Source: Demequina sp. TMPB413
Lineage (GTDB): Bacteria > Actinomycetota > Actinomycetes > Actinomycetales > Demequinaceae
Reading direction: 5' to 3'
Length of the DNA: 64,000 nucleotides
NCBI RefSeq assembly: GCF_020447105.2
Contig: NZ_CP096184.1
Coordinates: forward strand, 1,302,001-1,366,000
Under the pieces are notes generated by a model, which was given only the letters and a program-made list of their open reading frames with translations, ran no database searches and was not told the DNA's origin. The translations under genes were made by a program, and so were the position numbers. Positions 1-3,714 of this stretch are shown here, in pieces. Position 1 is the stretch's first letter; each line of letters opens with the position of its first letter.

Positions 1-567
1 ACCGTCCTCACGCCTGTCACTGACGGCACCGCGCCCATCGATCGGATCCCCGTCAGGCGCCAGCGCCTGTGGATCGCCGTCACATCGCTCCTGGTCATTC
101 TGCTGGGTGTTGCCGGCTACCTCATCTACCACCTGTCCGACGTGGCCAACCAGTGGGAAACCCAGGTCGAAGACATCAAGGCCCAGAACTACGACCTCGG
201 CCAACGCCTCGCCGACGAACAAACCCAGGTGATCGAGCTCCAAGGCCAGGTGGACACCGTCTCCGAGCAGCTTCGCACCGTGCAGCAACGCATCCTCGAG
301 CTCGCCGACGACGTTGCCCAGCGGGACGACAACGCCGAGTTCTACGCACGCCAGATCACCGACCTGACCGGAGTCCTCACCACAGCGTCGGCCGTTGCCA
401 ACTCGCTCAACAAGTGCGTCGAGTACAAGGAACAGCTGATCGGCTACCTCAAAGAGCCCGACAACTACGACCCAGCAGAGGTCGAGGCATTCGAGACGGG
501 CGTGGACAAGGTGTGCACGGCGGCCACCTCGGCGAACGTGGACTTGCAAACGGTCCTCGCGCAATGA
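1..567 (+). CDS. membrane-anchored coiled-coil protein (5' end outside window)
   Basis: The open frame runs in from the left edge, so the start is not visible; 188 residues remain. They show a basic stretch (VRRQRLW), one membrane segment (about visible residues 24-45), then a long heptad-like coiled coil rich in Q, E, L and V. Two cysteines follow near the C-terminus, in NKC and KVC. This predicts a single-pass protein with an extracellular coiled coil. The stop overlaps the start of the next gene (ATGA), so the two are translationally coupled. The downstream gene at 1391 has the same architecture, including the cysteine pair, so the two are probable paralogues. I do not recognise a named family. 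A role as partner or tether of the neighbouring protease is inferred only from the conserved gene pairing. Confidence 0.8.
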   Translation, partial: TVLTPVTDGTAPIDRIPVRRQRLWIAVTSLLVILLGVAGYLIYHLSDVANQWETQVEDIKAQNYDLGQRLADEQTQVIELQGQVDTVSEQLRTVQQRILELADDVAQRDDNAEFYARQITDLTGVLTTASAVANSLNKCVEYKEQLIGYLKEPDNYDPAEVEAFETGVDKVCTAATSANVDLQTVLAQ

Positions 568-1298
568 CCTCGCGTGTTGCGATAGCTGCGGCCTGCGCCG
601 CGGCGGTGGTGCTGGCAGGGTGCGCGGCCATTCCCGACGCCCCCAGCCCGCTGCCGTCCGACTACGTCCCCTCCGTGTCAGTCGAAGACGTCGAAAAGCC
701 AGGAAACCTCGCGCCCGACGGCTTCAGCGCAGCCCAGCGCATGACCGTACGCGTCCGCAACGTCACCTGCAGGGACCTCCAGACCGGCACCGGCTTCGCC
801 TACGACGCTCACACCCTGGTGACCAACCGCCACGTCGTCGAGAACACGCGCAAGTTGGAGGTCACCACCTACGATGGCCGCACCATCTCGGTCACGGCCG
901 CATCAGTGGCGGCCGTCGCGGACCTCGCGGTCATCACCACCGAAGAAGCCATGAGCGCAGGCGCCGTCCTCGCTCAAGAGGACCCGATCGAGGGAGACGC
1001 CATCACCGTGGTCGGCTACCCCAACGGCGGCAAGCTCACCACCGTCTCCGGCGTGGTGCTCGGATCCACAGCAGACCCGCTTGGAACGGCGCTCGGCCAG
1101 GTGCTCGCCACCACCGCGCCCGTGCAGCCAGGCTCCTCCGGTTCACCCGTTCTGAACGAGCGCGGCGAGGTGGTGGGAGTGATCTACGCCAAGAACGAGG
1201 CGGAGCAGTCCTTCATGGTGCCGGTGTCGATGCTCCGCACCCTGCTCGACGAGGAGCAACTCCTGGTACCTCAGCAACAGTCCTGCGACAACTCCTAG
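564..1298 (+). CDS. trypsin-like serine protease lipoprotein (copy 1)
   Basis: Predicted extracytoplasmic S1-type endopeptidase of 244 residues. An N-terminal signal ends in the lipobox LAGC, with Cys20 as the lipidated residue. The catalytic triad is readable: His90 in TNRHVV, Asp120 in AVADLAV, and Ser192 in QPGSSGSP. The sequence around these resembles the HtrA/S1C group but there is no PDZ domain, so it is a bare protease domain. Cys69 and Cys241 are matched in the copy at 2077 and may form a disulfide. ATG at 564 overlaps the upstream stop; a longer frame reading back to 69 lies inside the coiled-coil gene and is rejected. Substrate unknown. Confidence 0.88.
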   Translation: MTSRVAIAAACAAAVVLAGCAAIPDAPSPLPSDYVPSVSVEDVEKPGNLAPDGFSAAQRMTVRVRNVTCRDLQTGTGFAYDAHTLVTNRHVVENTRKLEVTTYDGRTISVTAASVAAVADLAVITTEEAMSAGAVLAQEDPIEGDAITVVGYPNGGKLTTVSGVVLGSTADPLGTALGQVLATTAPVQPGSSGSPVLNERGEVVGVIYAKNEAEQSFMVPVSMLRTLLDEEQLLVPQQQSCDNS

Positions 1299-1390
1299 CC
1301 TCTTGTGATGTTTCCCGCACCCGGGCCCCGAAGCATTCCGCATCGGCCACGCCTGAGGTAATGTCCGACCCGCGAGCCTGAGGGAGAGTC

Positions 1391-2080
1391 ATGTCGGAAC
1401 AGCCTGGCGCAAGTGCGCCCACACCCCCCTTTGAGCCAGAGGCTCGCCCCGAGCCGCTTGGTGCGCCGCCCGTCGGCCCTGCTGCTTCCGTGGCCCTCCC
1501 GCCCGTCGGCCCTGCTGCTTCCGTGGCGTACCCAACCCCGCCCGTCGGCGACGCCTTCCCACTGGCGACCCCACCCGTCGGCGACGCTCCCAACCCGCCC
1601 CGCCGCAAGCGTCGTCTCCTGCGATGGCTCGGGTGGAGCACCGCGGGCCTTGGCGTGCTCGCCCTCGTGGGCCTGAGCGCCTACCTGGTGGTGGTCTCGC
1701 AGCAATGGAGCGACAGGGTAGACGAACTCACCGCGATCTCGGAGGACCTCGGACAATCCGTCGCCGACGCGCGCGCCGCACAGGCCGACGCGGAGGCCAG
1801 GATGGACACCGCACGCGTGGAGCTCGAGAACGCGACCGCACGCATCAGCGACCTCGCGAACGAGGAGGCGCAAGCGAAGGACCGGGAATCCGTGCTGATC
1901 GGGTACGTGGACGCCGCACTCAGTTGCGCCGACTCCAGGCAAGAGGTCATCGACGTGCTGACGGACCCTGGTCTGATCTTCCAAGGCAAGTCCAACGCGC
2001 AGGTGGAGCGCGAGGTCACCGCCTACTGCAATGAAGTCACCTCAGGCTTCGCCACGTTCAAGGAAGAGATCGGCCAGTGA
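1391..2080 (+). CDS. proline-rich, membrane-anchored coiled-coil protein (copy 2)
   Basis: 229 residues. Residues 1-70 are proline/alanine-rich and carry PPVG repeats. Then come a basic patch (RRKRRLLRW), a membrane segment (about 80-102), a coiled coil (about 106-165) and a C-terminal part with Cys179 and Cys213. The proline-rich part should be cytoplasmic and the coiled coil outside. A GGGAG ribosome site lies 5 bases before ATG 1391, and TAATGT at 1358-1363 could be a -10 box, so this copy may have its own promoter. The stop overlaps the next start as GTGA. Architecture and neighbour match the gene that ends at 567. No recognised family or function. Confidence 0.82.
   Translation: MSEQPGASAPTPPFEPEARPEPLGAPPVGPAASVALPPVGPAASVAYPTPPVGDAFPLATPPVGDAPNPPRRKRRLLRWLGWSTAGLGVLALVGLSAYLVVVSQQWSDRVDELTAISEDLGQSVADARAAQADAEARMDTARVELENATARISDLANEEAQAKDRESVLIGYVDAALSCADSRQEVIDVLTDPGLIFQGKSNAQVEREVTAYCNEVTSGFATFKEEIGQ
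1468..1587 (+). repeat. 33-bp-period repeats coding PPVG units
   Basis: A 26-base block at 1468-1493 recurs identically at 1501-1526, 33 bases apart. A shorter block (CCCGTCGGCGACGC) occurs at 1541-1554 and 1574-1587, again 33 bases apart. The array encodes PPVGPAASVA-like and PPVGDA-like units in the cytoplasmic tail. Near-identity at the DNA level suggests recent slippage or recombination, so copy number may vary between strains. Confidence 0.8.
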
Positions 2081-2799
2081 CTCGACCTGGACGGGCGGTC
2101 GTGGGGCTCGGCACCGCGTTCGCCCTGACCGCGTGCGGCGTGATTCCCGCACCGCCGCCAGCGCTCGATGCCAACTTCATCCCCGACGTCGTCTCCCCCA
2201 CGATCGACCCCTCGGCGGCGGCATCGGACGGGTTCTCCACCGAGCAACACCTCGCCGTCCGCATCCGCGTCGAAACGTGCGAGGGCTGGGCGACGGGCTC
2301 CGGCTGGATCCTCGCCGACAACCAGGTGGTCACCAACCGGCACGTCATCGAAGGCGGCACGCGCATCGAGGTCACCACGTATGACGGGCGCGACTACCCG
2401 GTGATCTCATCGCAGGTGGCGCCCGTGGCGGACCTTGGCCTGCTGACGCTCGACAGCGTCTTCACCGAGACCGCCGAGTACGAGATCAGCGGCGCGACGT
2501 TCCTCGACCCTCTCACCATCATCGGGTACCCCTCTGGCTCCCTCCTCACCGTCGAGGAAGGCCACTACCTGGGCACAGGGCTCGACGAGGTGGGCGACAC
2601 CGGGGAACTCGTGTGGTCGCTGCGCGGACCCGTCCAGCCTGGCAGCTCCGGCTCCGCGGTCTTCAACCCTGACGGCAAAGTGGTGGCCGTTGTCTACGCG
2701 GGCGACGAATTCCAGACGGCCATCGCGTGGCCCGTGGTGTGGCTCGACAGGCTGATCAAGGACCCCGCTGGCTGGGAAGCCAACCCGCCCGCCTGCTGA
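2077..2799 (+). CDS. trypsin-like serine protease lipoprotein (copy 2)
   Basis: 240 residues, same design as the protease at 564. The signal ends in LTAC (Cys20 lipidated), a short Pro-rich linker follows, then the S1 fold with His89 (TNRHVI), Asp119 (PVADLGL) and Ser191 (QPGSSGSA). Cys68 and Cys240 match the extra cysteine pair of copy 1. The two proteases share blocks such as DGFS, VTTYDGR and PVQPGSSGS, so they are duplicates that have diverged around the specificity loops. GTG at 2077 is chosen because it overlaps the upstream stop (GTGA), like the ATGA overlap in copy 1. Probably cell-surface proteolysis; substrate unknown. Confidence 0.87.
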   Translation: MTRPGRAVVGLGTAFALTACGVIPAPPPALDANFIPDVVSPTIDPSAAASDGFSTEQHLAVRIRVETCEGWATGSGWILADNQVVTNRHVIEGGTRIEVTTYDGRDYPVISSQVAPVADLGLLTLDSVFTETAEYEISGATFLDPLTIIGYPSGSLLTVEEGHYLGTGLDEVGDTGELVWSLRGPVQPGSSGSAVFNPDGKVVAVVYAGDEFQTAIAWPVVWLDRLIKDPAGWEANPPAC

Positions 2800-2804
2800 C
2801 CCCT

Positions 2805-2950
2805 CACAAGTGGCTCAATCCGTACCGGATTTCGCCGCTTCGTGGCACAAGTGGCTCAATCCGTACCGGATTTCGCGGCTACGGGGCACAAGTGGCTCAA
2901 TCCGTATCGGATTTCGCCGCTTTGTGGCGTGAATGGCTAGATCCGTACCG
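2805..2950. repeat. 41-bp tandem palindromic repeat array (3.5 copies)
   Basis: Contiguous copies at 2805-2845, 2846-2886 and 2887-2927, plus a decayed copy at 2928-2950. Each full copy holds the core palindrome AATCCG-TAC-CGGATT (TAT in copy 3). In copies 1 and 3 the pairing extends to a stem spanning about 33 bases (2808-2840 in copy 1), with one 2-base internal bulge per arm. The array sits between the stop of the second protease gene and the stop of the convergent sseB-like gene, where an RNA terminator or a protein-binding array is plausible. No unique spacers separate the copies, so it is not CRISPR. Confidence 0.85.
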
Positions 2951-2961
2951 CGAGCCCGGAT

Positions 2962-3714
2962 TCAGCCGGACCAGGGCGCCAGCCGCAACTCCATGCTGTC
3001 CACCCTGTCCGCCACCACCGGAGAGGCCGCTAACGCCTCGTGGACCCTGCGCACAGCGTCGTCAACGGCGTTTCGCTGAAGGCCGGGCACGAGCATCACC
3101 ACCACCGCCACCTCGGCCCGCTTGCCTGGTGTCGCGTCGATGCGGCGCACCTCGTCATCCAAGGGCACTGCTTCGATGATGGCCTCGCGAACGTCCTCGA
3201 CCACGCGGTCGTCCATCACCGCCGGCCGCCACTGCTCACCCTGACCAAGAGCCCACACCGCGGGCCGCGGGATCAGGACGGACTCCATGGACGGGTTCAG
3301 CACCATCACGTTCCAGCCCTCGGCGGCGGCCGCCAGCGCGGCGCGAGGTCCCTCTGCTGGGACGGGGCGGGCATCGGCGTTCCATGTGCGCATCGCGTCC
3401 ACGTCGGTGAAGATCGGTAGCGCCGCCCTGCCATCCGGCATGTGCACCGCAACTACGCCCGCGGACGCCACGTGATCCTGCTCGACGCCGTGCTTGCCCA
3501 TCACTCGCTGCTCGCCATCGGCCAGCACCGGCACCAATACGCGCGCATACTGCAGCGCGTCCACCACCTCGGCAAGAGTTGCCTTGCCCCGCGAGAAGCG
3601 AATCAGGGCTTGAGCCAAGCGAGCGTCGGCCGTGCCGTCGTCGTCCGCGAAGAGCGATGACGGAATCTCTTTGAGCGAATCCGGCAGGGGTTGCTCTTCG
3701 TTGTCGCTCACCAT
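2962..3714 (-). CDS. SseB family protein
   Basis: 250 residues. The sequence has the features of the SseB N-terminal domain family: a middle segment reading VLVPVLAD, then LPIFTDVDAMRTW, then a block around LNPSMESVLIPRPAVWAL. The family is named after enterobacterial SseB, but actinobacterial members are cytoplasmic proteins of unknown function often found beside the PriA/HisA gene, as here. The C-terminal half may contribute a second related domain. It is the last gene of the histidine-operon strand, 26 bases after the lipoprotein gene. Family call fairly sure; biochemical role unknown. Confidence 0.8.
   Translation of the reverse strand: MVSDNEEQPLPDSLKEIPSSLFADDDGTADARLAQALIRFSRGKATLAEVVDALQYARVLVPVLADGEQRVMGKHGVEQDHVASAGVVAVHMPDGRAALPIFTDVDAMRTWNADARPVPAEGPRAALAAAAEGWNVMVLNPSMESVLIPRPAVWALGQGEQWRPAVMDDRVVEDVREAIIEAVPLDDEVRRIDATPGKRAEVAVVVMLVPGLQRNAVDDAVRRVHEALAASPVVADRVDSMELRLAPWSG

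Follow-up and report, generated by a model that had tools for sequence, protein, structure and literature searches.

A conserved, unnamed pairing of a membrane coil gene with a MarP-like lipoprotein protease gene, duplicated in tandem in Demequina

Introduction

At the left end of a 64,000-nucleotide stretch of Demequina sp. TMPB413 (contig NZ_CP096184.1, bases 1302001-1366000 of a single-contig 2.92 Mb chromosome; hereafter the window), a gene for a membrane coiled-coil protein is followed directly by a gene for a serine protease lipoprotein, and the same arrangement then occurs a second time. Do the coil and the protease belong together, and which known protease system, if any, do they represent? 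We find that the pairing is real and conserved, that no name for it was found, and that its protease half is related to MarP (Rv3671c), a membrane stress protease of actinobacteria. The original prediction, made from the DNA letters, knew of no named system with this pairing; a literature search, covering open-access papers, agrees with it, none of the papers listed being on the pair.

Two paralogous coil-protease pairs in tandem

The two pairs consist of the following genes.

CC1, window 1..567 (full gene L002:9938-10567), plus strand: coil protein, 209 amino acids; 63 bases lie left of the window edge, which cuts the gene
PrA, window 564..1298, plus strand: MarP-like trypsin-fold lipoprotein, 244 amino acids; ATGA overlap with CC1
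CC2, window 1391..2080, plus strand: CC1 paralogue, 229 amino acids
PrB, window 2077..2799, plus strand: PrA paralogue, 240 amino acids; GTGA overlap with CC2

A gap of 92 bases separates pair A (CC1-PrA) from pair B (CC2-PrB). PrA and PrB share 39% identity over 217 amino acids (E 7e-49), and CC1 and CC2 share 30% over their best 87 (E 9e-9). Judged by these comparisons the pairs are tandem paralogues, in the same order and on the same strand, which confirms the predicted tandem duplication of a coil and protease gene pair. Profile searches of the whole chromosome returned two coils, two family proteases and no others. Further copies left of base 1, which the original prediction had envisaged, did not appear: that side carries a DUF1844 gene and then a divergent infC gene.

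Coil and protease genes occur together across the order

Profiles of CC1 and PrA were searched over 396 genomes of the order, with thresholds chosen after viewing the tables (coil E <3e-6; protease E <3e-35, the next match being at 5e-25). The searches gave 98 coil matches and 105 protease matches, both within an identical set of 78 genomes spanning five families (f1, Demequinaceae, 35; f9, 30; f8, 7; f3, 5; f17, 1). Every one of the 98 strong coil matches has a protease match starting no more than 900 bases downstream on the same strand, and 97 of the 105 protease matches have a detected coil in front. The remaining eight sit at the copy B position, where seven have a coil by reading frame and one belongs to a locus (in G385) that was not inspected. 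Among the weaker coil matches, none of the 18 entered (of 33) has a protease.

The pair was also sought across the class. In a coil sample of 394 genomes, 26 genomes matched, and the sole additional true pair was that of G507, from another order (L205 / L253), which has the two coil cysteines, the lipobox and the MarP-type cysteines. The other class matches are weak (E 6e-6 or worse) and were rejected as pairs: when all 24 genomes besides the source genome and G044 were inspected, with at most 1.5 kb of flank retrieved, a protease appeared in G507 alone. The protease was in turn sought in 325 genomes of the class, which yielded 14 loci besides those of the source genome, G044 and G507, comprising ten of MarP type, three of another architecture (family f38, described below) and one unclassified at a contig end; the retrieved stretches around these 14 contained no coil match. 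The homologues are not usually found apart, given that all strong coil matches precede a protease and that the pair recurs in a second order.

Conservation of the locus within the genus

The locus was compared across 37 genomes of the genus, the source genome included. Two flanking genes mark its borders here.

SseB-family gene, window 2962..3714, minus strand: right-hand border of the conserved interval, a flank marker outside the pair
DUF1844 gene, L002:9558-9941: overlaps the start of CC1 by 4 bases

Pair A is flanked by infC/DUF1844 and SseB in all 37 genomes, and copy B, a further protease preceded by a coil, was found in 29. Similar neighbours recur in other families: DUF1844 in front and SseB plus priA behind in the 13 f9 genomes inspected (of 30), infC in front and SseB plus priA behind in the three f3 genomes inspected (of 5), and infC in front and priA behind in G186, from the other genus of f1. 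None of the infC/DUF1844/SseB/priA neighbours was seen in three f8 genomes and the f17 genome.

CC1 and PrA are spaced at -4 in 33 of 36 cases (35 genus genomes plus G044), and CC2 and PrB at -4 in 14, -8 in 11 and other values in 4 of 29; these counts used the start codon nearest -4 and so lean toward that value. The predicted 4-base coupled overlap therefore holds for both copies here (ATGA, GTGA) but is the usual rather than the universal arrangement, other spacings occurring across the genus. The lipobox cysteine, the catalytic triad and two further cysteines are invariant in all 36 PrA rows (the same 35 genomes plus G044) and all 28 PrB rows (the PrB of G026 was left out). The cysteine pair of the coil is likewise invariant in 36/36 CC1 and 29/29 CC2 rows; row selection favoured coils with the pair, and a list made without that preference gives the same pairs.

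The duplication is old, to judge from pair A in all 37 genus genomes and copy B in 29. Dating it by a tree was tried and given up: the A proteases form one clade (98/78), and the B proteases fall outside f9, f3 and f8, not as one clade and on long branches, for which true age and long-branch attraction are indistinguishable. Copy B evolves faster (mean distance 0.91 for PrB vs 0.40 for PrA), and its faster change and its loss in some genomes fit a specialised, dispensable second pair.

Some further observations concern individual loci. Remnants of copy B in G012 (L095) look like the decay of a second pair. G186 (L183, L184) holds three family proteases, all accompanied by a coil gene; two of them are in the infC-priA locus and the third is on another contig (C3), and a further coil match lies between the first two pairs of the infC-priA locus. 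A single CC1-PrA frame in G008 (L110) was considered as a natural fusion that would prove contact, and was given no weight because the usual CC1 end and stop lie one frame over across a C run, so that a one-base length difference (real or a sequencing error) explains it. In the source genome DUF1844 resembles the first gene of the CC1 operon because of its 4-base overlap; in 5 of the 37 genus genomes the DUF1844 match adjoins the coil match, and in the others the two are wider apart. Directly behind PrB (window 2805-2950) is a 41-base tandem repeat of 3.6 copies, with related units at three more chromosomal places, one of them a three-unit cluster near base 391958 that has the identical 41-base step; the plus strand carries all eight matches.

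Correlated evolution of coil and protease

Evolutionary distances were compared by partial correlation, with the SseB, TrmH and DUF1844 distances removed and with 2000 permutations. The partial r was 0.55 for CC1-PrA (n=35) and 0.85 for CC2-PrB (n=29), the latter being 0.69 after CC1 and PrA were also removed (n=27), and no permutation reached any of the three values. Among the control pairs, r was 0.03 for PrA-InfC (reached by 739 of 2000 permutations), 0.19 for CC1-InfC (14), 0.23 for CC1-SseB (5) and 0.27 for PrA-SseB (5).

Neighbouring genes of one operon often serve one process, and a 4-base overlap is common among co-transcribed genes, so coil and protease might share an operon and a compartment, for instance in envelope upkeep, without ever touching. 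We regard this as quite unlikely, since the genes are paired one-to-one across several families and at different chromosomal places, were duplicated together as a pair, and have distances that correlate above those of the control pairs. The predicted joint action of the two proteins, and with it a coil-protease partnership, is well supported by genomics, through co-occurrence, recurrence in G507 and correlated distances.

The protease half is related to MarP

Both copies were confirmed to be what had been predicted, a lipoprotein serine protease with an intact triad and an extra cysteine pair: PrA has the lipobox C20, the triad H90/D120/S192 and C69 plus C241, and PrB has the lipobox C20, the triad H89/D119/S191 and C68 plus C240. 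Pfam assigns Trypsin_2 to both, and the best NCBIfam model for both is the MarP family NF033740 (PrA 88.1 and PrB 68.5 bits, below the cut-off of 250). An AlphaFold2 model of PrA, built from a 39-row alignment, has a mean predicted local distance difference test score (pLDDT) of 86, and its best Foldseek match is Rv3671c (3lt3, 3k6y). Against PHROGs the proteases matched one family annotated 'protease', the other families being unnamed.

The pair proteases resemble MarP in a trypsin-fold domain outside the membrane, a His-Asp-Ser triad and a cysteine pair in the same alignment columns. Both MarP cysteine columns are shared by PrA, PrB, all six further family rows and all eight MarPs that pass the NCBIfam cut-off, so kinship to MarP explains the extra cysteine pair. 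For a mycobacterial MarP homologue, PMC4992679 gives a predicted disulfide 214-397, stated for MarP too, and four transmembrane helices. From the flanking residues, this disulfide probably corresponds to the aligned columns, and the pair would close the barrel here as well.

Could PrA and PrB simply be a canonical MarP, or an HtrA/DegS protease? The Trypsin_2 fold speaks for it, as do the structural searches, which have MarP and DegS among their top matches, yet we hold it to be very improbable: the scores of 88 and 68 bits are far under the MarP cut-off, and in the tree the pair proteases fall into a clade of their own, separate from the eight MarPs (100/100). A hydropathy scan found one hydrophobic segment in PrA and PrB, in contrast to four or five in ten MarP-type proteins of the class. 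MarP has four N-terminal transmembrane helices (PMC4992679), whereas the proteases here start with a signal peptide that carries a lipobox, and the coil is a protein of its own. With DegS and HtrA the pair protease shares the fold and the design of a membrane-tethered envelope protease; it differs in its lipid anchor, its MarP-type cysteine pair, its coil partner and its lack of a PDZ domain, none being found in PrA or PrB in a Pfam scan with E up to 1. The last helix of the PrA model stops at residue 229 of 244.

The three f38 loci (L256, L260, L263) encode MarP-like proteases with an N-terminal CxxC-CxxC motif (zinc-ribbon-like), a membrane-type segment and an extra C-terminal domain, a design that looks like another anchor arrangement for the same protease domain. 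Behind the barrel they carry another pair of cysteines, spaced 33-34 residues, which was considered as a sign of a protease-coil fusion; this reading was rejected, the tail not being coil-like and the profile comparison giving a probability of 0.04%.

Canonical MarP in genomes with and without the pair

Canonical MarP, defined by the NCBIfam cut-off with at most four candidates scored per genome, was found in 176 of the 396 genomes of the order. It was not found in any of the 35 f1 genomes sampled, all of which have the pair. The source genome has no match over the NF033740 cut-off, and neither do 13 genus genomes in which all candidates were scored. In the pair genomes of the other families it was found in 8 of 30 (f9), 0 of 5 (f3), 7 of 7 (f8) and 1 of 1 (f17). 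The counts lean toward an order-wide replacement of MarP by the pair (MarP in 16/78 pair genomes vs 160/318 others), but such a replacement is not claimed, because kinship confounds these counts and the two often occur together or are both missing.

The coil half

CC1 has a basic N-terminal part, one transmembrane helix, a long helix, a turn and two more helices, with cysteines at C139 and C172 (residue numbers follow the window's 188-residue frame). Its AlphaFold2 model, from 7 rows, has a mean pLDDT of 78 and a predicted template modelling score of 0.53, with helices at 21-107, 112-151 and 158-187. The turn at residues 108-111 holds an invariant aspartate (residue 110), and the cysteines are in the second and third helices. 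CC2 has a proline-rich N-terminal part, one transmembrane helix and C179 plus C213, and is 14 residues shorter after the turn. Of the predicted single-pass coil with two cysteines, the cysteines stand in each copy; in place of one straight rod, the AlphaFold2 model shows a long helix that turns back. The N-terminal part of CC2 (window 1391-1600) carries repeated proline-rich units, PPVGPAASVA and PPVGDA, that CC1 does not have.

Among the matches listed for CC1 and CC2 (25 of 27 Pfam rows for CC1), which are of coil type, none is over a curated Pfam or NCBIfam cut-off, and the 36 CC1 rows give the same coil-type Pfam matches, below cut-off among the matches listed. A fold search with the CC1 model returned no match with E <0.001, and the coil profile compared with solved structures gave a best E of 0.002, mostly to coiled-coil entries.

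One alternative is that the coil is the substrate of the protease or its bound inhibitor, silencing it and being cut to start a response, as in regulated intramembrane proteolysis. Synthesis of the coil comes immediately before that of the protease, the two genes being tightly coupled, and the coil evolves fast, as bound partners can (mean distance 0.94 for CC1 vs 0.40 for PrA); MarP itself makes the site-1 cut in a membrane protein (PMC11175481). We take this alternative seriously but think it unlikely, because Pfam gives the coils neither an anti-sigma domain nor any other known cytoplasmic one (only coil-type matches, below cut-off among the matches listed), the part ahead of the transmembrane helix has only about 45 and 85 residues and is unlike between the copies, and the two conserved cysteines and the turn aspartate argue for a structural role.

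A protease beside a coil protein also recalls the defence module Lamassu (LmuA protease plus LmuB coiled coil), whose SMC-type coil is intracellular. PADLOC does list LmuA for PrA (E 1.8e-10) and LmuB for CC1 (E 0.0013), but these matches are confined to the trypsin domain and coil segments. The lipobox and the transmembrane helix put both proteins outside the cytoplasm, as envelope proteins at a chromosomal locus fixed in 37 of 37 genus genomes, and coils of 209 and 229 amino acids have no ATPase head. A Lamassu-like module is therefore extremely improbable.

Discussion

With a probability of roughly 55%, we read the locus as encoding a MarP-like protease of the envelope that is held by a lipid anchor and has a conserved membrane coil as its partner. 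Each pair would form a two-part protease on the outward side of the cytoplasmic membrane. Its second gene would provide the lipid-anchored MarP-like serine protease, its barrel closed by a putative MarP-type disulfide, and the first a single-pass membrane protein with a long outer helix folded back and, in most members, its own cysteine pair. The tether would thus be split between the lipid anchor of the protease and the transmembrane coil from the gene in front, the coil supplying the membrane module for which MarP has four transmembrane helices in cis. Membrane tethering is reported to matter for MarP (PMC4992679). The most likely task of the coil is to hold, order or switch the lipoprotein protease, or to present the substrate to it.

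What the protease cuts may be judged from MarP, which cleaves RipA (PMC6628586) and performs the site-1 cleavage of the anti-sigma factor RsdA (PMC11175481). By analogy, the targets of the pair under envelope stress would be proteins of the membrane or wall, for example an anti-sigma factor or a hydrolase of the wall. The two copies have diverged, B faster, and would probably have different substrates in a division of labour.

Several observations weigh against this reading. VIA-align ties MarP with many HtrA chains (5ilb, Z 26.6, root-mean-square deviation 1.8, 180 aligned; 3k6y, Z 25.6, root-mean-square deviation 6.2, 196 aligned), so the fold alone cannot settle the kinship. Copy B is missing in G007, G009, G014, G023, G031, G033 and G036, which with the remnants in G012 makes 8 of 37 genus genomes in which it is absent or decayed. 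CC1 is split by a frameshift in G026, and in the Demequina litorisediminis record L035 its frame stops early, after the first cysteine; either may be an assembly error. Three of the four control correlations are also rarely reached by permutation, so that kinship was not wholly removed, and the crossed pairs correlate as well (CC1-PrB 0.59, CC2-PrA 0.32), so the distances do not demonstrate cognate specificity. Canonical MarP accompanies the pair in 16 of 78 genomes, and the pair is thus not simply a MarP replacement; 158 of the 396 genomes have neither. Finally, the f8 coil is short, ending near the turn, and has no cysteines in two of the three genomes inspected (G043, G145). The membrane-near coil is thus the common core, and a gate formed by the cysteine hairpin cannot be general.

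That the coil tethers or gates the protease, as the original prediction proposed, stays a guess; the protease has its own lipid anchor, and those two f8 coils have no cysteine hairpin. A bolder version, in which the coil would be an obligate membrane regulator that replaces the four-helix domain of MarP in trans, senses the state of the envelope and switches the protease, with the duplicated pairs of Demequinaceae as two parallel routes of envelope-stress proteolysis, is conceivable but doubtful.

The locus thus presents an unnamed, tightly paired two-gene envelope protease in five families of one order and in one genome of a second. Its protease is tied to MarP, and some lineages have the pair but yielded no canonical MarP. 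Such lineages provide a test in nature of whether the cis anchor of MarP is replaceable by a separate partner protein in the membrane.

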